From assembly GCA_028285465.1 (NCBI GenBank), contig JANQPD010000023.1, positions 62,001 through 126,000 on the forward strand: a stretch of DNA of 64,000 nucleotides. Direction: 5' to 3'. Below are positions 4,296 to 52,997 of the stretch, piece by piece (the first letter of the stretch is position 1; each line of letters starts with the position of its first letter). This DNA comes from Owenweeksia sp. (GTDB taxonomy: Bacteria; Bacteroidota; Bacteroidia; Flavobacteriales; Schleiferiaceae). A model generated the notes under the pieces. That model saw only the letters and a program-made list of their open reading frames with translations. It did not search any database and was not told where the DNA came from. The translations under genes were made by a program, and so were the position numbers.

Positions 4296-5417
4296 ATGAA
4301 TAAAGTTGTTGTATTTGGAGGTCGTTCGGAATATAGATTGGCATTGTACAATAGTCTTGCATCAAGCCTTGGCTTTGATTTTATCATATGTGACGAAGCA
4401 AAAGAGGACGGTATAAAAGGTTATGCCGATTCTAGTTTGAAAAATCACGTACACACTACTCAAAAGGTTAAACTTATTGGTAATTTTTACTATTTGTCGG
4501 GGATTTTCAGTCTTCTAAAGAAGTATGACACTTTAATTGTTGGAGGTGCTTATTGTGTTAATTTTTGGCTTTATATTCTTTGGTCCAGATTAACCGGAAG
4601 GAGGCAGGTGTTTAGTTGGTCGCACGGGATGTATGGTAGGGAGCAAGGGGTAAGGAAGTGGATTAAAATAATATTCTTTAAGTTTTGTCACGGTAACTTT
4701 GTTTACAACAATCGATCCCGTGACTTAATGATTAAGTCGGGTGTTAATGCGGATAAGGTGTTCCGGTTGGGTAACTGCTTAGATACTCCCGAAAATCTTG
4801 AAATCTATCAAAAAACCAATTCTACCGAAATCTATAGGAAGCTGTTTGGAAATGACCGTGTACCACTGGTGTTTGTAGGGAGAGTATCAAGAGAGAAAAG
4901 AATAGACATTCTATTGGATGCTCTGCTAATATTAAAAAAGAGAGGTAGGCTACTCAATTTACTCATCGTGGGAAAAGATGTGAATGGACTGAGGTTGGAA
5001 GAGTATGCAGAGGAGTTAGGCCTAAGTGATCAGGTTGTTTTTTATGGCCCCTCTCATGACAAAGCTCTACTGGGAAATTTGTTCTATAATGCTGAACTGT
5101 GCGTTTCTCCTGGGAATGTTGGCTTGACAGCAATACACGCTATGTCGTTTGGTTGCCCGGTGATTAGCCACGATGATTTCAATTTTCAGGGGCCGGAGTT
5201 TGAGGCTATCAAACCAGAGAAAACAGGATTGTTTTTCAAGCAATTAGATAGCATGGATTTAGCAAATCAAATAGAACTTTGGTTGGATACTTTCAGTGAA
5301 AGGAAAGAGTTGAGGGCGGAGATTCAGAAAAACTGTTTAGAGGAGGTTATGAGTAACTGGAGCATAGAATCAGAATTGGAAGTCTTTAGGAATGTATTGA
5401 GTTTGAAGGAATTTTAA
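4296..5417 (+). CDS. Glycosyltransferase family 4 protein
   Basis: About 373 aa, GT-B fold. The Glycos_transf_1 C-terminal half is clear: FVGRVSREKRIDILLDAL near residue 190, GLSDQVVFYGPS, and GNVGLTAIHAMSFGCPVISH near 275. The usual EX7E glutamates are replaced in this last motif, a variant also found in other GT4 enzymes. ATG at 4296 is preferred over an in-frame TTG two codons upstream. It sits 8 bp after the polymerase and likely adds one sugar of the repeat unit on the cytosolic face. Donor unknown. Confidence 0.82.
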   Translation: MNKVVVFGGRSEYRLALYNSLASSLGFDFIICDEAKEDGIKGYADSSLKNHVHTTQKVKLIGNFYYLSGIFSLLKKYDTLIVGGAYCVNFWLYILWSRLTGRRQVFSWSHGMYGREQGVRKWIKIIFFKFCHGNFVYNNRSRDLMIKSGVNADKVFRLGNCLDTPENLEIYQKTNSTEIYRKLFGNDRVPLVFVGRVSREKRIDILLDALLILKKRGRLLNLLIVGKDVNGLRLEEYAEELGLSDQVVFYGPSHDKALLGNLFYNAELCVSPGNVGLTAIHAMSFGCPVISHDDFNFQGPEFEAIKPEKTGLFFKQLDSMDLANQIELWLDTFSERKELRAEIQKNCLEEVMSNWSIESELEVFRNVLSLKEF

Positions 5418-5440
5418 CTGTATTTTAAACGATCTTTTTC

Positions 5441-6694
5441 ATGTATGTATTAATCAATTTCAATTCTTATTTGGGAGGTGGCGAAACTCTGCTAGTACGG
5501 ATGGTAGCGCACTTAAAGCTTACCATTCAACCATTTTCCGTATGTTGTTTAAAAGACAGTTTTATCGAATCAGAAATGGTTAAGATGAATCTTGAAGACA
5601 ACATGATATTGTTTGATAAGGATTGTTACGATTACTATTATTTGACACCTAACCGTAGAACTTGGTTAGTAGACCAAATAAGTAAGCATTTTAGTCAGCA
5701 AGGTGTCAGGTTTGTTTCGTTTTGCCTAAGGGACCTATATTTAGCAAGTCATTTGCTTAAGGTGTTACCTAACGCTACAATTGTTCACTTAGCGCTCCAT
5801 TACCAGGACAATCTTTATCTGGGTAAATCCCTTTGGGATAAAATGCTCAAGAAATTTTTTCAAATTGAACGCTTTTCAAGAAAGCGCTACCTCAGGTTGA
5901 ATAATCGACTGTTAAATATATTGGCAAAAAAAGATGCGGTAGTACCTATGGGTGATTTGATGGTTGACCTGTGGAAAGATCAGTACAACATCCAATTAAC
6001 ACGAGATGTTGTTGTTCCGTTGGCTACCTACGATTTTGAGACCGTAAATGCAGTTTCGAACTTCAACAATCGCATCATCTGGATTGGACGAATTGTAGAT
6101 TTTAAAATCCCGGCCTTAGTGGCAATGTTGGACTTTATAAAAAGAAGTCCTGCTTATTCCTTAAGTATTGTGGGCGATGGTGACCTGAACTTCATCAAGT
6201 CCTATATTAAGAAGAATAAGATAGATAACGATCGGATTAAATTTTACGGAGAGGTAGCCTATAGCGATTTGCCCGGGGTGATTCAGGACCACTCTATAGG
6301 ATATGCAATGGGCACGTCTTTAATTGAAATTGCACGCTTTGGCCTTCCAACGGTTATGGCTCTGGGTAGCCCGGATCATAAATTATTTAAACAGGGCATT
6401 TGTGGAGGACTCTTTACGGGGAAACACAGAGGAAATGTCGGTGACAATTTGTTTGCAGGCCAGAACCAGGCAACCCAGCCTTTGCTGGAAGAAATCATTG
6501 ATGATATTGAAAAGGACTATTCCGGGGCTGCTGAGAGGTGTAAGGAAAACCTAGACAACTTTTCCTTTACCAGGAATATGGAAAAGTATTTAAATATTAT
6601 TGATAGCTCCGTTCCTGTTGATCTGTCAGAAGTTCAAATCCCATTCCCTACCTTTGTCAGAAGGTGGGCTAGGAATAACTTCGAAGGGGTATGA
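5441..6694 (+). CDS. GT-B glycosyltransferase (family 4-like)
   Basis: 417 aa. It opens with MYVLINFNSYLGGGETLLVRM, where the GGGE nucleotide-sugar loop is typical of GT4 enzymes. The C-terminal half contains IIWIGRIVDFKIPALVAML near residue 210 and SLSIVGDGDLNFI. The acceptor-binding half is not recognisable. The last codons overlap the next gene by 4 bp (ATGA), indicating translational coupling. Substrate unknown. Confidence 0.72.
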   Translation: MYVLINFNSYLGGGETLLVRMVAHLKLTIQPFSVCCLKDSFIESEMVKMNLEDNMILFDKDCYDYYYLTPNRRTWLVDQISKHFSQQGVRFVSFCLRDLYLASHLLKVLPNATIVHLALHYQDNLYLGKSLWDKMLKKFFQIERFSRKRYLRLNNRLLNILAKKDAVVPMGDLMVDLWKDQYNIQLTRDVVVPLATYDFETVNAVSNFNNRIIWIGRIVDFKIPALVAMLDFIKRSPAYSLSIVGDGDLNFIKSYIKKNKIDNDRIKFYGEVAYSDLPGVIQDHSIGYAMGTSLIEIARFGLPTVMALGSPDHKLFKQGICGGLFTGKHRGNVGDNLFAGQNQATQPLLEEIIDDIEKDYSGAAERCKENLDNFSFTRNMEKYLNIIDSSVPVDLSEVQIPFPTFVRRWARNNFEGV

Positions 6695-18580: not shown

Positions 18581-19681
18581 TTATAGCAGGTCGTGATCCA
18601 GCATAAACCCCAGGCTCATAAAAATGCCCAGCCTTCTGTTTTCGGCTTGAGCATTGCCAAAGAGAGGTAAGTTGTTTGGCGTCTCCCCGTAACGTCCTTC
18701 CAGGCGGATGTACACCTTGGGGTCTGGGGTATAGGCCGTGCTTAACGTAATGGCCTGCCATCTTAGACCTCGCTCGTTTCCCCGGGTGTCGGTAAAACTC
18801 CCGCTGATAAACCCGCTACGGTCATCAAAGAATTCAAGGCGGGTGCTCACAGAAAAAGAAGAAGTGAGGTGATAGCGTGCGGCTAACAAGGCGTTAAACA
18901 GAAAACCATCGGGAATACTATCTGCATCCGAACTATACTTCTCCGTACCTACATCCGAGCCAAGCTGCAGGTCAAATTTGCCAAGTTGTGCATTGAAATA
19001 GAGATTGTGGTAGGTGCGAAAGGCGTTATACCCCACTTCACGTGGCTGTTCGTATCCCAGGAGGTTGGTATAGGTAAGAGACCAAAACTCGGTAAAGTGG
19101 TAACTTAAAAGTACACCAACCGATTTAGCGGAGTTGTTGTCGACAAACAAATTGTAGCCATTGAGCAACCACAACTCCGCGTTTAGCTTTTGGTTTCCTT
19201 CATAGCTCAGGCGGGCACCCATCTGGTAAAAGGGCTCGTTGTAGGTGGCCACTGCCGTACTAACAAAAAAGTTGTTCTTTGGCAAAAAGCTTTCCGTGCC
19301 TATATGGGTAGCAAAAAAGCCGGCATCCAGCCAGATGTCTTTGCCAAGCCTGATACCTGCATTGGCTTCCTGTATTTGATTGTAGTCTGTGTCCCAGGTA
19401 GCCTTCATGATATCTCCATAATGCAGGGTAAAGTTTCCCCTTATCCGCTTGCTTTTGTAGTGAAGCCCAATTTGGGCCACATTTAAGGCCAGTTGATCTT
19501 GACGGGGAAAAACCGTGCTGAAGGGCTGTAACCCATTTTGGCCGCCCAGGGGATAAGCGCCATAGCCCGCGTCTATATAAACGTCTAAGGATACCCGGGT
19601 GTTTGTATCCCTTTCTTGCCCGAAGGCGATATGACTAAAAACACAACTCAACAAAGAGGAGCACAGAAGAAGTCTTCGCAT
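18581..19681 (-). CDS. Outer-membrane beta-barrel porin, BBP2/OmpL-like
   Basis: 366 aa from ATG at 19681 (an in-frame TTG lies one codon upstream). A signal peptide ends near SHIAFGQ (residue ~22). The rest alternates short amphipathic strands and turns: QIGLHYKSKRIRGNFTLHYG near 70, RLGKDIWLDAGFFATHIG near 105, a pattern of the BBP2 putative porin family of Bacteroidota. The final residues do not end in the usual aromatic but in DHDLL. Transcribed away from the potassium transporter gene, with a 69-bp divergent gap. Substrate unknown. Confidence 0.8.
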   Translation of the reverse strand: MRRLLLCSSLLSCVFSHIAFGQERDTNTRVSLDVYIDAGYGAYPLGGQNGLQPFSTVFPRQDQLALNVAQIGLHYKSKRIRGNFTLHYGDIMKATWDTDYNQIQEANAGIRLGKDIWLDAGFFATHIGTESFLPKNNFFVSTAVATYNEPFYQMGARLSYEGNQKLNAELWLLNGYNLFVDNNSAKSVGVLLSYHFTEFWSLTYTNLLGYEQPREVGYNAFRTYHNLYFNAQLGKFDLQLGSDVGTEKYSSDADSIPDGFLFNALLAARYHLTSSFSVSTRLEFFDDRSGFISGSFTDTRGNERGLRWQAITLSTAYTPDPKVYIRLEGRYGETPNNLPLFGNAQAENRRLGIFMSLGFMLDHDLL

Positions 19682-19750
19682 CAAACACTTTTCGTTTGTT
19701 ACAGAACCAATTTAACCGCAGTTGGTTTTAATGCAACATTATCTTTATAT

Positions 19751-21085
19751 ATGAACTATGCTTTCTGGCGCAGGTTCGGTGCGTTTGAGCCTTCCCGCAT
19801 TCTTCTTTTCGGTTACCTGACCATTATGTTTTTTGGTTTTGGCCTGCTTGCCCTGCCTGTTTTCCAAGAGAAGACACAACCTTTACTGGATCACCTTTTC
19901 ATTGCTATTTCGGCTGTAAGTACTACGGGCTTGGTGACGGTTTCAGTTAGCGACAGTTACAATTTTGCAGGGGAGCTCATTGTACTCCTACTCATTCAAA
20001 TCGGAGGCTTGGGCTATATGTCGGTAGCTTCCTTTATTATTTTAGGTAGCCGCAAGCGCATTTCCAGTTTTACTTCCCGTTTGTTGAGAACCGATTTCAG
20101 CCTGGGCGAGAAAGCCGAACTCATCGGCTTCGTAAAGGGAGTGGTATACTTTGCCATTGCCATAGAAGCTTTGGGTGCGCTATGTCTGTATTTCATCTTC
20201 TTAGAAAAAGGGATAGAGCAGCCGGTATGGAATGCTGTTTTTCACAGCATCTCTGCTTTTTGTACGGCCGGGTTTGCGTTATTTGGCAATAGCTTTGAAG
20301 CATTCAGCGGCAACGTATGGCTCAATGTGGTTATTAGCGTGCTGGCCTTATGCGGAAGCATTGGTTTTTTGGTATTTGTGGATGTGTACCAGCGGCTGTT
20401 TGGCAAAACAAAAAAACTGGCGTTCACCACTAAGATCATTTTACGCTTTACCGGAGTGTTGCTGGTTTTATCGGTGGTCTTGATCTTACTTTTGCAAAGC
20501 TCTTTCGCACTTAACGATCCCTTAGAGCAGTTTTTGCTTAGTTTTTTCCAGGCTATGACCGCCCTGAGTACGGTAGGTTTCAATACGTATCCCATTGGGG
20601 AATTGTCTGTTACCGTATTATACATCATCATCATTTTAATGCTTATCGGGGCCTCCCCGGCAGGTACGGGGGGAGGCATCAAATCCACAACTATTACCGC
20701 CATGTATGCTGTGGTAAAGTGTACCCTGATCGGGAAAAAACGGATCACTTTTTTAGGCTCGGAAATTCCCAACGACCGCTTGCGCCTGGCCGCGGCTAAT
20801 TTCTTTTTTTACATTATGATGCTTTTTCTTTCCATTTTGCTTTTAAGCTATACCGATAAGCTCGACATATACGCGCTGATGTTTGAAGCCGCATCGGCCA
20901 TAGGAACGGTTGGCTTGAGTATGGGCATTACCGGTGATTTGAGTACTGCGGGAAAGTGGATCATCATTTTTCTCATGATCGTAGGTAGGTTGGGTGCTGC
21001 CACCTTTGGCCTTGCTCTTTTCAGGGGAAGCAGTGATGCTGAAGGAGAGCAGGCAGACGTAGAAAGGGAAGATGTGGTGATTTGA
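19751..21085 (+). CDS. TrkH/KtrB-family potassium uptake channel subunit
   Basis: 444 aa from ATG at 19751; the frame is open further upstream but would overlap the porin start. Four MPM repeats are visible through their filter glycines: STTGLVT, CTAGFAL, STVGFNT and GTVGLSMG. The intramembrane loop GASPAGTGGGIKSTT is also present. Length is nearer KtrB than TrkH. The NAD/ATP-gating partner (TrkA/KtrA) is not adjacent. A strong intrinsic terminator lies 92 bp downstream. Inner-membrane K+ import. Confidence 0.92.
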   Translation: MNYAFWRRFGAFEPSRILLFGYLTIMFFGFGLLALPVFQEKTQPLLDHLFIAISAVSTTGLVTVSVSDSYNFAGELIVLLLIQIGGLGYMSVASFIILGSRKRISSFTSRLLRTDFSLGEKAELIGFVKGVVYFAIAIEALGALCLYFIFLEKGIEQPVWNAVFHSISAFCTAGFALFGNSFEAFSGNVWLNVVISVLALCGSIGFLVFVDVYQRLFGKTKKLAFTTKIILRFTGVLLVLSVVLILLLQSSFALNDPLEQFLLSFFQAMTALSTVGFNTYPIGELSVTVLYIIIILMLIGASPAGTGGGIKSTTITAMYAVVKCTLIGKKRITFLGSEIPNDRLRLAAANFFFYIMMLFLSILLLSYTDKLDIYALMFEAASAIGTVGLSMGITGDLSTAGKWIIIFLMIVGRLGAATFGLALFRGSSDAEGEQADVEREDVVI

Positions 21086-21176
21086 TCTAAAGTATACGTC
21101 AGTGCGCTTCGCAAAACCTTGACACCCTGGATATGTAGCCCAATAATTCTGCACTATATTCGCAACAACCAATTAC

Positions 21177-21203
21177 AAGAGCCGATATCTTCGGCTCTTT
21201 TTT
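21177..21203 (+). terminator. Intrinsic terminator after trkH, inside the mutS-like leader
   Basis: A perfect 9-bp stem AAGAGCCGA / TCGGCTCTT (21177-21185 with 21191-21199) with a 5-nt loop, followed by TTTT. It ends 8 bp before the ATG at 21212, so it either simply ends the potassium-transporter transcript or acts as an attenuator of the next gene. Confidence 0.82.
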
Positions 21204-21211
21204 ATGCCTAC

Positions 21212-22993
21212 ATGTCAAAAAAATTCTATCAGGAAAAGCAAGCGCAGGTAGCGAAGACACTTGCCCAACAAAAAAAACAGGATCGCTTGTATTCCCTTTT
21301 CAGGGCGTTGAGCATACTCACCGCGCTAAGTGCTTTTTACCTGGCCATAAAACAAACTATTCCAAGCTGGCACTGGCTAGGTATAACATTACTGTCACTT
21401 TTCCTGTGGTTACTTAAAAAGCATCAGAATTTACGTGCCCGGATCAAACGGGGCAAAACCTTAGAAGATATTTTAAAACAGGAATGCAAAGCCCTGGATG
21501 GAAACATCAGCCACTTTGAAAATGGAATGGGCTTTCACGATCCTAGGCATATGTATGCACACGACCTGGATGTTTTTGGGCCTGATTCCCTTTTTCAACA
21601 CCTTAACCGTACGGTTACACGTGGCGGAGGACAACGTCTGGCCTCTTATCTCAAGGGAGAAGTAGAAGTTGAGGATCTGATACAGCAGCAGGAAGGGATA
21701 AAAGAGCTGACACAAGTACCTGATTTCAGGCACGCTTTTGCGGTAGAGGGGAAACTTATCCGCGAAGAAGAGGGCTTATTGGCCGGGTTCGAACGTTGGC
21801 TACGTGAAAAGTATACCTTTAATATACTAGGGCATCCTTTGCTCTTGTATTTCCTTTCAGCTCTGGCAATCGGGCTGTTGGGCTTGTTTGTTGTACAGCC
21901 TGGCATACGACATGCAGAATGGTTCGGGTATGCCTTTGCTTTAAACCTGTTGATCAGCTATATGCATTTTAGTAAGATCAAAAGGGCCTATGAGCAGCTG
22001 GGAAAAATGGCCGCTACACTAGGTATGTATGCAGAAATGATCGCACTGATGGAGCGGCTTCTCACAAAGGGCAAAAAAATAGAAGCTTTACAAACGGCCC
22101 TTAAGACAGAGGGAAAAACAGCCAGCCACTCCTTAAGGCAGCTTAAGCGCTTGCTTGACCGTTTTGATCAACTCAACAATGTAGTGGCTCTCATTGTCAC
22201 GAATGGTTTGTATCACAACCATGTGCATGCACTTCGTGCATTGGAAAGCTGGAAATCAACACATAAGAGCAGCTTGAACCAATGGCTTTTTGCCGTGCAT
22301 GAAATGGACGCCCTTTGCAGCCTTGCCAACTTTGCTTTCAATAATCCGGCTTATGCCTATCCCATTAAAAGCAAAACTCCGGAGTACGAAATACAGGATG
22401 CAGCACACCCCTTGATCCGTGCGGAGGTACGCGTGGCCAACAGCTTGTCTTTTATCCAGCAGCCTTACGTGATCCTGACCGGCAGCAATATGAGCGGCAA
22501 GAGTACTTTTTTAAAAACCCTGGGCTTGAATCTTATCCTGGCTAAATGTGGAGCACCGGTTTGTGCCCGCCATATGCGCTTTTACCCCTTCACTATTTTA
22601 AGCAGTATGAAGCTGGTCGACAGCATCAGTAGGGCGGAATCATATTTCCAGGCCGAAGTGCTCAAGCTGAAGCGGGTAAAAGAGATCCTGGATTCAGGAA
22701 TACCCTGTTTTGTACTCCTGGACGAAATACTGCGAGGCACCAATAGTGAAGATAAGCGAAAGGGTACCCGTCTTTTTATGGAAAAGCTTAAGGCCTATCA
22801 GGCCTTGGGCATACTGGCTACACATGATGTGGATGTGGCCCAGTTAGCAAATGATTTCCCCGGGCATTATACCACCGCCTACTTTGAAAGCAGGGTAGAG
22901 GGGAACGAACTTCATTTTGATTATCAATTACGCCCCGGGATTTGTACCACCCCCAATGCCACTAAGCTAATGCAAGGCTATGGGATCATTTAA
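21212..22993 (+). CDS. Membrane-anchored MutS-family ATPase
   Basis: 593 aa from ATG at 21212 (frame open upstream through a terminator, so the later start is chosen). C-terminal third is a MutS domain V ATPase: Walker A TGSNMSGKST near residue 424, SISRAESYFQAEV, Walker B CFVLLDEILRGTNS near 500, and ATHDVDVAQL. The core and lever region precedes it from about residue 105. Unlike mismatch-repair MutS it lacks the N-terminal mismatch-binding domain. It has two hydrophobic hairpins: about residues 25-70 and 210-255. This architecture occurs in Bacteroidota; function unknown. Role in repair should not be assumed. Confidence 0.88.
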   Translation: MSKKFYQEKQAQVAKTLAQQKKQDRLYSLFRALSILTALSAFYLAIKQTIPSWHWLGITLLSLFLWLLKKHQNLRARIKRGKTLEDILKQECKALDGNISHFENGMGFHDPRHMYAHDLDVFGPDSLFQHLNRTVTRGGGQRLASYLKGEVEVEDLIQQQEGIKELTQVPDFRHAFAVEGKLIREEEGLLAGFERWLREKYTFNILGHPLLLYFLSALAIGLLGLFVVQPGIRHAEWFGYAFALNLLISYMHFSKIKRAYEQLGKMAATLGMYAEMIALMERLLTKGKKIEALQTALKTEGKTASHSLRQLKRLLDRFDQLNNVVALIVTNGLYHNHVHALRALESWKSTHKSSLNQWLFAVHEMDALCSLANFAFNNPAYAYPIKSKTPEYEIQDAAHPLIRAEVRVANSLSFIQQPYVILTGSNMSGKSTFLKTLGLNLILAKCGAPVCARHMRFYPFTILSSMKLVDSISRAESYFQAEVLKLKRVKEILDSGIPCFVLLDEILRGTNSEDKRKGTRLFMEKLKAYQALGILATHDVDVAQLANDFPGHYTTAYFESRVEGNELHFDYQLRPGICTTPNATKLMQGYGII

Positions 22994-23142: not shown

Positions 23143-23928
23143 ATGATGGCAGCACTTTTAAGAATGGTGGATGAGTTCAAGGGCTTTTTGGTAGAAACAG
23201 GAGCTCTTTTCCTTTTCACCTTGCGCTTTTTTAAGGAACTGTTTAACCCTCCTTTTGAAGGGAAGGAGTTGCTGAAGCAATGCTATTATATTGGCAATCA
23301 ATCTCTTGTTTTAGTAGCTCTAACCGGTTTCATCCTTGGGCTGGTTCTGACCTTACAAACGCGCCCTACACTCATCGAATTTGGAGCGGTTTCCTGGATG
23401 CCTAATATGGTAAGTGTATCTATAGTAAGGGAGCTCGGGCCTATGATTACAGCGCTTATCTGCGCCGGGCGAATCGCCTCGGGTATAGGTGCCGAGCTTG
23501 GTTCTATGCGGGTTACGGAGCAGATAGACGCCATGGAAGTGTCGGGCACCAACCCTTTTAAGTACCTGGTGGTTACACGTATACTGGCAGCAACGCTAAT
23601 GCTCCCTTTGTTGGTGGTATTTGCAGATGCAATCGGGCTATATGGCTCTGCCTTAGTGGAAAACCTAAGAGGAGATGTTTCCTTCCAGTTATACTTCAAC
23701 AAGGTTTTTGATAGTTTAAAATATGCCGATCTGATCCCGGCTACTATAAAGTCTTTTTTCTTTGGCTTTGCCATAGGCCTCGTAGGCTGCTACAAAGGCT
23801 ATTACTGCAAAAAGGGCACAGCAGGTGTGGGCGTTGCAGCCAATACTGCCGTAGTGTTTGCCTCCATGTTGTTGTTCGTTATCGATTTTCTCACCGTTTT
23901 TGTTTCGGATATCTTTTTTGAATTCTAA
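23143..23928 (+). CDS. mlaE: MlaE-family lipid ABC transporter permease
   Basis: 261 aa, with five or six membrane helices. The MlaE signature runs through SVSIVRELGPMITALICAGR near residue 87, GAELGSMRVTEQIDAMEVSG near 115 and GVGVAANTAVV near 225. Inner-membrane permease of the retrograde phospholipid transport system that maintains outer-membrane asymmetry. mlaF follows after 4 bp and mlaD after another 4 bp, giving an E-F-D operon without mlaB or mlaC nearby. Confidence 0.93.
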   Translation: MMAALLRMVDEFKGFLVETGALFLFTLRFFKELFNPPFEGKELLKQCYYIGNQSLVLVALTGFILGLVLTLQTRPTLIEFGAVSWMPNMVSVSIVRELGPMITALICAGRIASGIGAELGSMRVTEQIDAMEVSGTNPFKYLVVTRILAATLMLPLLVVFADAIGLYGSALVENLRGDVSFQLYFNKVFDSLKYADLIPATIKSFFFGFAIGLVGCYKGYYCKKGTAGVGVAANTAVVFASMLLFVIDFLTVFVSDIFFEF

Positions 23929-23932
23929 GGAA

Positions 23933-24709
23933 ATGAAAAAGAACCCGTATCAAATAGAAGAGGTCTCTAACCCGCAAAAAGCAATGGTTACAATCCGGGA
24001 TCTGCATAAACGTTTTGGCGACAATCACGTGCTTAAGGGGTTTAACCTGCAGTTGTATGAAGGAGAAAGCCTGGTGGTAATGGGCAAATCCGGTTCAGGT
24101 AAATCTGTCATGATCAAGTGCCTGATGGGGTTGATTGCGCCCGATAGCGGCTATATCGAGGTAATGGGAAAGGAAATAGATTCCCTGGACCAACAGACGT
24201 TGGATCATTTGAGGTCGGATATCGGTTTTTTGTTTCAGGGAGGGGCGCTGTACGATTCCATGACGGTACGTGAGAACCTGGAATTTCCCTTGAGGCGCCA
24301 TAAAAAGAAAATGGGCGGGGCCGTGCAGACTATTGGTCTCGTACGTGAGGCTTTAAGGAGCGTTGGCCTTGAAAGAGCCATAGACCTGATGCCCGCAGAG
24401 CTTTCCGGAGGCATGAAAAAGCGGATTGCCTTAGCGCGTGCCTTGATCCTGAAGCCGAAGATTATTCTGTATGATGAGCCGACCAGTGGCCTGGATCCCA
24501 TCACCGCTAAGGAAATTATAGAACTCATGCGAGACATTCAGGAGAAATACGGCACCTCTTCGCTCATTATTACCCACGATGTAGACTGTGCCCGGGTTAT
24601 TGCCAACCGCATGGTGCTCTTGGTTGACGGGGTAGATTATGCCCACGGGACTTTTGAGGAATTATCAAATGCCACGGATCCAAACATTGAAGCATTTTTT
24701 AAAAAGTGA
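23933..24709 (+). CDS. mlaF: MlaF-family ABC transporter ATPase
   Basis: 258 aa from ATG at 23933, preceded by AAGGA, an unusually good ribosome site for this window; an upstream in-frame ATG inside mlaE is rejected. Walker A GKSGSGKS near residue 50, Q-loop FLFQGGALYDSMT, signature LSGGMKKR near 157, Walker B IILYDEPTSGLDP near 178, and H-loop ITHDVD. GGMKKR and GGALYDS are typical of MlaF. Powers MlaE. Confidence 0.94.
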   Translation: MKKNPYQIEEVSNPQKAMVTIRDLHKRFGDNHVLKGFNLQLYEGESLVVMGKSGSGKSVMIKCLMGLIAPDSGYIEVMGKEIDSLDQQTLDHLRSDIGFLFQGGALYDSMTVRENLEFPLRRHKKKMGGAVQTIGLVREALRSVGLERAIDLMPAELSGGMKKRIALARALILKPKIILYDEPTSGLDPITAKEIIELMRDIQEKYGTSSLIITHDVDCARVIANRMVLLVDGVDYAHGTFEELSNATDPNIEAFFKK

Positions 24710-24713
24710 TAGG

Positions 24714-25685
24714 ATGGAAAAAACAACTGCACAGAAACTAAAGCTCGGAATTTTTGTCATTATCGGCACCGCTCTATTAGTAGCGGCCATCTATTTTGTG
24801 GGCAGCCGGCAAAATGTTTTTGGAAGTACATTTGAGATTACAGCGGTTTTTAAAAATGTAAACGGGCTGCAAAGAGGCAATAATGTGCGCTTCTCAGGTA
24901 TAAACATAGGAACGGTAACCGGTATTGAAATGAGCAATGATACTACCATCCGTGTGCGGCTGCTGATCGAGGAGAAAATGAAAGCACACATTCGTAAAGA
25001 CGCCATTGCCTCTTTGGGTACTGATGGTCTGGTAGGCAGTATGCTCATTAACATCACCCCGGGTCTGGGAAAAGCAAACCTGGTAGAGCCCGGGGATGAG
25101 ATCAGAACTTATAGCCGCATCGCCTCTGAAGATATGTTGAGCACCCTCAATGTAACCAATGAGAACGCCGCCCTGCTTACGTCAGACCTGCTGAAAATAA
25201 CCCAATCCCTGATCTATGGCAAGGGAACATTGGGAAGGCTACTGAATGATACCCTTATGGCGCGGGATATGTATGAAGCGGTTGCCAACTTAAAAGACAT
25301 AAGCATAGAAGTAAACAGGGCCATGCAGGAAGTAAGGACCTTATTGGCCCAGGTGCACTTTGAAGGCAGCGCAGCGGAGGTTTTGCTAAGCGATACGGTT
25401 TCCGGTGAAAAAGTGAGAAAGATGATCCAAAACATGGAGGAGGCCAGTATGGAGCTAAACGGGATTGTGGAAAACCTGAACGGCACACTGGAAAAAATGA
25501 ACGAAGGAGACGGGACAATACCTTACCTGCTTAACGATACGGTTTTAGTGAGGCAACTGGATGCAAGCATGCAAAATATTCAAGAAGGTACCGCACGCTT
25601 CAATGAGAATATGGAAGCCTTACAGCATCATTTTTTATTCAGACGCTATTTCAGGAAGAAGGCGGCCAAAGAAGCTCAGAAATAG
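24714..25685 (+). CDS. mlaD: MCE-domain protein MlaD
   Basis: 323 aa from ATG at 24714. One N-terminal membrane anchor (LKLGIFVIIGTALLVAAIYF, residues 9-28), then a single MCE domain at about 38-120 with FKNVNGLQRGNNVRFSGINI and DGLVGSMLINITPG. The C-terminal half is helical and probably forms the coiled tube used by MCE oligomers. It binds lipid in the periplasm and docks on MlaE. Longer than proteobacterial MlaD (~180 aa), as usual for Bacteroidota. Confidence 0.93.
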   Translation: MEKTTAQKLKLGIFVIIGTALLVAAIYFVGSRQNVFGSTFEITAVFKNVNGLQRGNNVRFSGINIGTVTGIEMSNDTTIRVRLLIEEKMKAHIRKDAIASLGTDGLVGSMLINITPGLGKANLVEPGDEIRTYSRIASEDMLSTLNVTNENAALLTSDLLKITQSLIYGKGTLGRLLNDTLMARDMYEAVANLKDISIEVNRAMQEVRTLLAQVHFEGSAAEVLLSDTVSGEKVRKMIQNMEEASMELNGIVENLNGTLEKMNEGDGTIPYLLNDTVLVRQLDASMQNIQEGTARFNENMEALQHHFLFRRYFRKKAAKEAQK

Positions 25686-27435: not shown

Positions 27436-28644
27436 ATGTGCCATTCCCTAATGCGCTTGCTTCTATTCACGCTTCTTTTTTCTGCTTTTACAGGGAAAGC
27501 AGGTACAACCACCTTGAGTGAGCGTGCAAAAATGTACCTGGTTACCTGCGGACCGGGTCAAAATGAACTGTATTCGGCCTTTGGCCATACGGCTATTCGG
27601 GTACAGGATCCCCTGCTTGGCATAGACCTTATTTTCAATTACGGGGTTTTTGACTTTGATCAGCCTAATTTCTACCTCAATTTCGCAAAAGGGAACCTCC
27701 TGTACCAACTGGCGCTAAACGATTACCAACGGTTTTACCAGGCATATGTCAGGGAAGGCCGCTTTGTATACTTACAAGAACTCAATTTTGACCAATCTCA
27801 GAAGCAGGCTTATTTTGATTTTTTGGAATGGAACGCCCGGCCTGAGAACCGCCCGTACTATTACGATTATTTTTATGACAACTGCGCTACCCGTCCACGT
27901 GACGGTATGGTACAGGCGTTGCAAACACTGGGCCAGGAGGTAGTTTGGGACACTACTTATGCCGTAAGTGGGGTCAGCATCCGGGACCTTTGCGAAGAAT
28001 ACTTGCAATACCAGCCCTGGGGCGATTTAGGAATAGATATTTGTTTAGGATTGCCTATGGATAAGGAGGCCACGCCCCTGGAATATACCTTTTTACCGGA
28101 TTATCTCGCTAAGGCTGCTGATGAAGCATGGCTTATTGACGGAAGTGCTTCTAAAAAGCTGGTATCCCGTGCTTTCTTTGCGTTCGAAGCCACCGCACAA
28201 CCTGTGCGTCCCTGGTTTACCCCTACGGTTTGCTTTAGCCTTTTACTGTGCCTGGGTATACTGTTGAGCTTCATAGAACAGCGAACAGGCCGTGTATTTC
28301 TTTGGTTTGACAAGAGCCTTTTTTCGCTGGCGGGTCTTATCGGCTGGCTTTTGCTGTTGCTTTGGTTCTTTACCGACCATACGGCTGCGGCACGCAATAT
28401 GAACCTGTTATGGGCCATTCCGCTCTATTTTCCTACGGTACTCTTTCTCCAAAAAAAGAGTAGGGGATTTAGTCTTTTTCTTATGCGCTTTAGCTTTCTC
28501 GTGCAGGCCGTAGTGCTCGTGGGTTGGTTCTTCTGGCCCCAGGCCTTACATCCGGGACTTTTTCCCCTCTGCGCCCTTTTGCTGTGGCGCTCCTTTTGGC
28601 GGGTGTATCGCGCTAACCGTCAGCTTACTGTTCGCTCATATTAA
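27436..28644 (+). CDS. DUF4105 (Lnb-type N-terminal domain) membrane protein
   Basis: 402 aa. A signal peptide or anchor (residues 6-22), then a periplasmic domain with papain-like candidate residues: ELYSAFGHTAIRVQDP (H51) and YDYFYDNCATRPRDG (C150). From residue ~255 there are four or five membrane helices. DUF4105 proteins have been linked to lipoprotein N-acylation in Bacteroides (Lnb); I recall this but did not check it. That role fits an organism with many lipoproteins and is an inference. No close operon partner. Confidence 0.8.
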   Translation: MCHSLMRLLLFTLLFSAFTGKAGTTTLSERAKMYLVTCGPGQNELYSAFGHTAIRVQDPLLGIDLIFNYGVFDFDQPNFYLNFAKGNLLYQLALNDYQRFYQAYVREGRFVYLQELNFDQSQKQAYFDFLEWNARPENRPYYYDYFYDNCATRPRDGMVQALQTLGQEVVWDTTYAVSGVSIRDLCEEYLQYQPWGDLGIDICLGLPMDKEATPLEYTFLPDYLAKAADEAWLIDGSASKKLVSRAFFAFEATAQPVRPWFTPTVCFSLLLCLGILLSFIEQRTGRVFLWFDKSLFSLAGLIGWLLLLLWFFTDHTAAARNMNLLWAIPLYFPTVLFLQKKSRGFSLFLMRFSFLVQAVVLVGWFFWPQALHPGLFPLCALLLWRSFWRVYRANRQLTVRSY

Positions 28645-52966: not shown

Positions 52967-52997
52967 AAAAAAAAAGCCCACGGTCAAACCGTGGGCT
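52967..52997 (-). terminator. Strong intrinsic terminator of the 61.7-53.0 kb operon
   Basis: On the - strand AGCCCACGGT, loop TTG, ACCGTGGGCT then nine T (52975-52967). A perfect 10-bp GC-rich stem, 18 bp downstream of the DUF4249 stop at 53015. It separates the operon of island 2 from the next receptor pair. Confidence 0.9.

Follow-up and report, generated by a model that had tools for sequence, protein, structure and literature searches.

A predicted membrane-anchored ATPase of the MutS superfamily in Owenweeksia sp. and its relatives in Bacteroidota and Staphylococcus

A 64,000-nucleotide stretch of the Owenweeksia sp. genome (hereafter the window) encodes a MutS-superfamily ATPase that would reside in the inner membrane and have departed from DNA mismatch repair. 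Profile searches and a structural model showed that the ATPase site is of MutS type and complete, and that it sits on a MutS core from which the mismatch-binding, connector and clamp domains are absent; in the model, predicted membrane hairpins take the place of the DNA-gripping parts, the first ahead of the core and the second within it. The database label for the family is 'MutS family DNA mismatch repair protein'; the family very probably does no mismatch repair. Coordinates of the gene, its parts and its leader are collected in Table 1.

Table 1. Features of the window at and upstream of the MutS-family gene; positions are those of the window, with residues of the encoded protein where given.
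Feature	Position	Strand	Details
trkH	19616..21085 (start putative)	+	Pfam TrkH E 6.6e-54; upstream of the ATPase gene
Intrinsic terminator	21177..21203	+	Stem of 9 bp, loop of 5 nt and T-run; most likely the trkH terminator
Membrane MutS-family ATPase gene (predicted)	21212..22993	+	593 aa, stop codon counted in; Pfam MutS_V; full-length relatives; AlphaFold2 pLDDT 93
N-terminal helical hairpin, residues 1–95	21212..21496	+	Helices 2–48 and 51–95; no alignment to MutS
Predicted TM1 (about 28–47) and TM2 (about 51–70)	inside N-terminal hairpin 21212..21496	+	Hydropathy, model
MutS core remnant, domain III-like, residues 112–377	21545..22342	+	All-helical, clamp sheet absent; VIA-align, DSSP, weak MutS_III
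Second predicted membrane hairpin, TM3 (208–228) and TM4 (232–251)	21833..21964 (residues 208–251)	+	Set inside the core domain
ATPase domain, MutS-type	22385..22990	+	Residues 392–593; Walker A 423–432, Walker B 502–505, THD 537–539

The ATPase was assigned through Pfam MutS_V, matched at residues 420–579 (E 2.8e-20, 73.5 bits, cut-off 30.2) and in all 42 family members compared. The MutS_III match at residues 126–372 was weak (19.3 bits, below the cut-off of 34.1), and 28 of the 42 members had one at E ≤ 0.01. MutS_I, MutS_II and MutS_IV were found in none of the 42, in agreement with the original prediction of a protein that has MutS-type Walker motifs and lacks the mismatch-recognition domain. 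No Smr domain was detected by Pfam at E ≤ 0.01, and the chain stops directly after the ATPase. Nearly all positions of the Walker motifs, TGSNMSGKST and LLDE, are invariant across the family, and the residues N426, G429, K430, T432, D470, S477, E482, D504, E505, T537 and H538 are invariant in both the 42-row and the 65-row alignment. The residues of the ATP site are among those that are invariant. In the first half of the protein, Y6, R31, F64, E91, H113, D118, D120 and R133 are among the invariant or near-invariant residues, almost all of which lie off the membrane helices. A first family alignment comprised 41 of 64 other members, a second 64 of the 77 loci passing a length filter (from 80 loci) and a third 52 of those 64.

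The start codon was checked against the closest relatives, whose N-termini align at residues 1–6 of the reading from the ATG at 21212; an upstream in-frame TTG at 21119 has no counterpart in them. Homologues therefore back a start downstream of the leader hairpin rather than one upstream of it. Three MutS_V genes are present in the genome, the window ATPase included, and the other two have the lengths of MutS1 (open frame of 870 aa) and MutS2 (751 aa). The genome retains a MutS1 and a MutS2 of its own, which counts in favour of a role of the window ATPase outside mismatch repair.

The AlphaFold2 model, built with 65 sequences (pLDDT 93.0, pTM 0.92), runs from a helical hairpin (2–48/51–95) through core helices and a membrane pair (208–228/232–251) to a helix (336–377) that leads into the ATPase. 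In VIA-align, residues 106 or 112 to 593 matched MutS, MSH2/3 and MutS2 chains at Z 27–34 (maximum 33.6) with 307–411 residues aligned; since at most 202 of the aligned residues belong to the ATPase, the core is matched too. Domain III is accordingly recognizable by fold, and by sequence only weakly, whereas residues 1–95 fall outside the MutS alignment. The MutS clamp domain is a sheet, and DSSP found no strand of at least three residues before residue 392 of the model. Together with the absence of MutS_IV from the members searched, the predicted structure indicates that clamp domain IV is missing in the family. The model contains no periplasmic domain.

The two hydrophobic hairpins named in the original prediction are uneven in the window protein itself, with maximal 19-residue Kyte–Doolittle (KD) means of 1.68, 1.48, 2.61 and 1.01 for TM1 to TM4, but they stand out across the family. 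In residues, the hydrophobic stretches run over 28–48, 52–70, 205–228 and 232–255. A KD of at least 1.5 was reached in both hairpins by 62 of 65 members and in all four helices by 44 (56, 62, 60 and 53 members for TM1 to TM4). A peak outside the four segments was seen in 34 of the 65 at this threshold and in only 10 at 1.7, and the best segments of eight controls (seven MutS1 and one MutS2) scored between 1.11 and 1.67. Lysine and arginine averaged 4.77, 4.14, 2.78 and 3.40 in the flanks of the helices and 0.54 and 0.17 in the hairpin loops, which are short (means of 7.3 and 5.6 residues). Among 106 sequences, the membrane columns were 5–11 % polar with an entropy of 2.77–3.01, compared with 3.09 for the exposed N-terminal helix and 1.75 for the ATPase; the few polar residues in the helices are not conserved. 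Hydrophobicity is thus kept while the sequence drifts, which is the pattern of a lipid-facing anchor and unlike that of a buried core, and this fits a reading of the segments as membrane helices. By prediction, then, the protein has spanning helices with positive-inside flanks as expected of an integral membrane protein, and hydropathy, flanking charge and column composition support the proposal of a MutS-family membrane protein. Both ends of each hairpin are predicted to lie in the cytosol, from hydropathy, charge and the monomer model.

The distribution of the family was determined at several scales. In a sample of Bacteroidota, a match at E ≤ 1.2e-45 was present in 87 of 296 genomes (counted from the match list), and within the organism's own taxonomic family the gene was found in 17 of 88 genomes at E ≤ 1e-40, none of the carriers having a genome smaller than about 2.8 Mb. 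This patchiness suggests that many relatives can dispense with the function. Among the best matches in 84,980 species genomes, all 80 loci retained came from records titled as Bacteroidota or with the name of one of its genera. Relatives of medium length (536–571 residues) occur in Bacteroidota and Staphylococcus, and short relatives (438–447 residues; L199–L207), all from one class, are soluble and lack the membrane hairpins. A 54-row tree built on the ATPase part resolved the long (93/95), medium (98/91) and short (100/99) forms as one group each; the two membrane forms joined at 84/89, and all three were united against MutS1 and MutS2 at 99/96 (FastTree 0.989). The family is on this phylogeny a lineage separate from both. 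The Staphylococcus members lie at 5002–6612 of locus L185 (S. aureus) and 5044–6654 of L184 (S. epidermidis), the S. aureus gene between an abc-f gene and tsaD. Origin as a phage gene was considered and rejected: of 15 pattern matches in IMG/VR, 3 were relatives, and the Staphylococcus 'phage' and one S. aureus 'plasmid' record share the abc-f, tsaD, ilvD order and were taken as chromosome. A defence system was likewise set aside (best PADLOC match E 1.5e-4, around Walker A only).

The known systems closest to the protein are MutS1, MutS2/RqcU, KamC and a Staphylococcus protein. With MutS1 it has the ATPase and some of the core fold in common (VIA-align Z about 30, 385–405 residues), but it lacks domains I and II and the clamp, carries two predicted membrane hairpins, falls on a separate branch (99/96) and scores 100.5 bits against a cut-off of 480 for NCBIfam MutS and 73.4 against 641.7 for TIGR01070. 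MutS2/RqcU likewise has no domains I and II and agrees in core and ATPase (7vuf_A, Z 29.1; 7qv3_v, Z 27.9), and differs in that the window protein has the membrane hairpins, no Smr match in Pfam, a separate branch and 71.8 bits against the NCBIfam MutS2 cut-off of 400. KamC (NCBIfam NF052383), the MutS-like reactivase of lysine 5,6-aminomutase, is similar in its MutS-type ATPase, and its NCBIfam name assigns a protein substrate to such an ATPase. The window protein, however, scored 95.3 bits, below the KamC cut-off of 300, over residues 349–543 only, and identity with KamC was rejected, none of 118 genomes having a match above that cut-off. A further likeness is to the 536-aa Staphylococcus protein, which has a membrane hairpin at the corresponding site before the ATPase, the same ATPase motifs and a joint branch (84/89); it differs in having a single N-terminal membrane helix instead of a hairpin and in being about 55 residues shorter.

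A gene neighbourhood survey, suggested with the original prediction, clustered the five genes that flank the ATPase gene to either side at 123 loci. No partner gene was common to more than 17 loci. The largest cluster (17 loci) was sensor-kinase-like by eye and in mixed positions, and the nearest to constant neighbours were a small MmcQ-like gene (10 loci) and a UspA-like gene (7 loci), also named by eye. Since no partner gene is conserved, the ATPase probably works by itself or together with a dispersed partner. Of the 122 other loci where a family gene was called, none had trkH next to it; trkH is an accidental neighbour. Downstream, mlaE-mlaF-mlaD (MCE lipid transport; 23143–25685) begin 150 bp past the ATPase gene, and an mlaE homologue was near only 1 of the 122 other loci, eight genes away. 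These neighbour counts leave out L072 and L094, and the gene caller swapped mlaF for an overlapping frame. Homologues of a membrane-protein gene at 27436–28644 directly adjoin the ATPase gene of L066 and of L069, two of the relatives. A further membrane protein of about 340–370 aa, DUF4407-like by eye, was seen on the opposite strand one to three genes downstream at L062 (9879–10901), L064 (7722–8756) and six loci of one cluster.

The function that we propose, with about an even chance of being right, is the remodelling of a protein or ribonucleoprotein partner by a clamp or switch that is driven by ATP and tethered to the membrane; it would not sense mismatches. The protein would act as a homodimer, as MutS proteins generally do, with ATP binding closing two composite sites and hydrolysis opening them. 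The core helices may pass this motion on to the membrane hairpins, the second of which sits within the core, and the machine would be held at the membrane surface and push on it. Its partner there might be a protein or a ribonucleoprotein, by analogy with MutS2 on ribosomes, an activity mentioned in PMC12292046. Neighbourhood and residues gave no pointer to a ribosome or protein substrate.

An unlikely alternative, the best placed of those weighed, is that the protein handles DNA at the membrane: a dimer like that of MutS2 would use its core ring to hold DNA or recombination intermediates there, for chromosome tethering, DNA uptake or anti-recombination. The MutS ancestry and the retained core domain favour it, as does a statement in the review PMC12292046 that MutS2, without domains I and II, still handles branched DNA. 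Against this, the clamp and mismatch domains were not found in 42 members, the model has no strand at the expected site of the clamp sheet, and no Smr nuclease was matched in Pfam. No DNA-repair or competence gene was recognized by eye as a recurring neighbour among the clusters listed.

Somewhat less probable is an ABC-exporter-like machine derived from MutS, in which the eight membrane helices of a dimer would gate a lipid or solute path under ATP control. MutS and ABC ATPases have a dimeric composite ATP site in common, each chain has four predicted membrane helices with long cytosolic extensions, and many weak Foldseek matches of residues 1–345 (modelled alone at pLDDT 93.5) are ABC exporters such as CydDC, TmrAB, PCAT1 and IrtAB. 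These matches are not significant, however: none reached E ≤ 0.001 (best E 0.65) and most had an rmsd above 15 Å, and MutS was absent among the 50 listed. In VIA-align the same residues reached Z ≤ 12.2, matched long helical hairpins only and stayed under the noise level stated for helical bundles. The scarcity and poor conservation of polar residues in the membrane helices also count against a gated path, as do the absence of a periplasmic domain and of a recurrent partner. That the family represents a second, independent ABC-transporter-like engine, with the ATP cycle of a MutS-type dimer directly moving an eight-helix membrane bundle, we regard as improbable; if true, MutS, regarded until now as a machine for DNA and ribosomes, would drive a membrane process in Bacteroidota and, through its shorter form, in Staphylococcus.

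Turning to the leader, a perfect terminator hairpin ending 8 bp before the ATG had been predicted, at which transcripts from trkH would stop unless read-through were controlled; the hairpin is confirmed and controlled read-through was not borne out. The hairpin, AAGAGCCGA/TATCT/TCGGCTCTT at 21177–21199, has nine of nine perfect pairs around a 5-nt loop and is followed by T's to 21203, so that 12 nt separate the stem, and 8 nt the T-run, from the ATG at 21212; its RNA fold has an energy of -14.6 kcal/mol. It is the only forward-strand hairpin in the window with at least 8 perfect pairs and at least 5 T in the next 7 nucleotides, and 10 first-order Markov sequences of window length held 0 or 1 such hairpins each, 4 in total. 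No second copy exists in the genome when up to 3 mismatches are allowed, the single reverse-strand match being the same palindrome. Because it stands at the expected place, 91 nt past the trkH stop (21085), it is most likely the terminator of trkH. A second perfect terminator hairpin was found on the reverse strand at 52975–52997 (10 bp, 8 T), the sole one that strong on that strand.

A role for the leader hairpin as a controlled attenuator, with read-through from trkH setting ATPase expression, for example in response to potassium, is very improbable. The gap from the hairpin to the ATG is too short for a promoter, and every transcript that comes from upstream therefore has to cross the hairpin. 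On the other side, a hairpin of any kind (at least 6 bp and T's within 90 nt) was present in only 11 of 122 family leaders, window included, scattered from 12 to 65 nt ahead of the presumed start, trkH adjacency was not seen in the 122 other loci, and Rfam gave no match above its gathering score. The sole Bacteroidota-like promoter match upstream of the hairpin, with 2 mismatches, was no better than chance, being equalled in 94 of 500 random stretches. A sigma-70-like site, TTGACA-17-AATAAT at 21119–21147 (11/12), was one of 8 and was set aside, because shuffles yield more (12.4) and Bacteroidota promoters differ from the sigma-70 type.

Least credible of all is a soluble protein with buried hydrophobic helices: the moderate hydrophobicity of TM2 and TM4 in the window protein (1.48 and 1.01) and a single soluble clade of relatives about 440 residues long would allow it, and the positive-inside charge pattern, the hydrophobicity kept without sequence conservation and the lack of such peaks in the MutS1 and MutS2 controls speak for the membrane.

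Membership of MutS was already known in databases, and the membrane hairpins would be the new aspect: a full-text search of limited open-access literature found no description of a membrane-embedded MutS-family protein, which is consistent with the original statement that such a homologue has no established function. The annotation, very probably in need of correction, is repeated across Bacteroidota and Staphylococcus. As a predicted membrane protein, the family would bring the MutS motor into the membrane, here beside MutS1 and MutS2 in one genome, and the identity of its partner would reveal what a MutS ATPase can drive beyond DNA and ribosomes.
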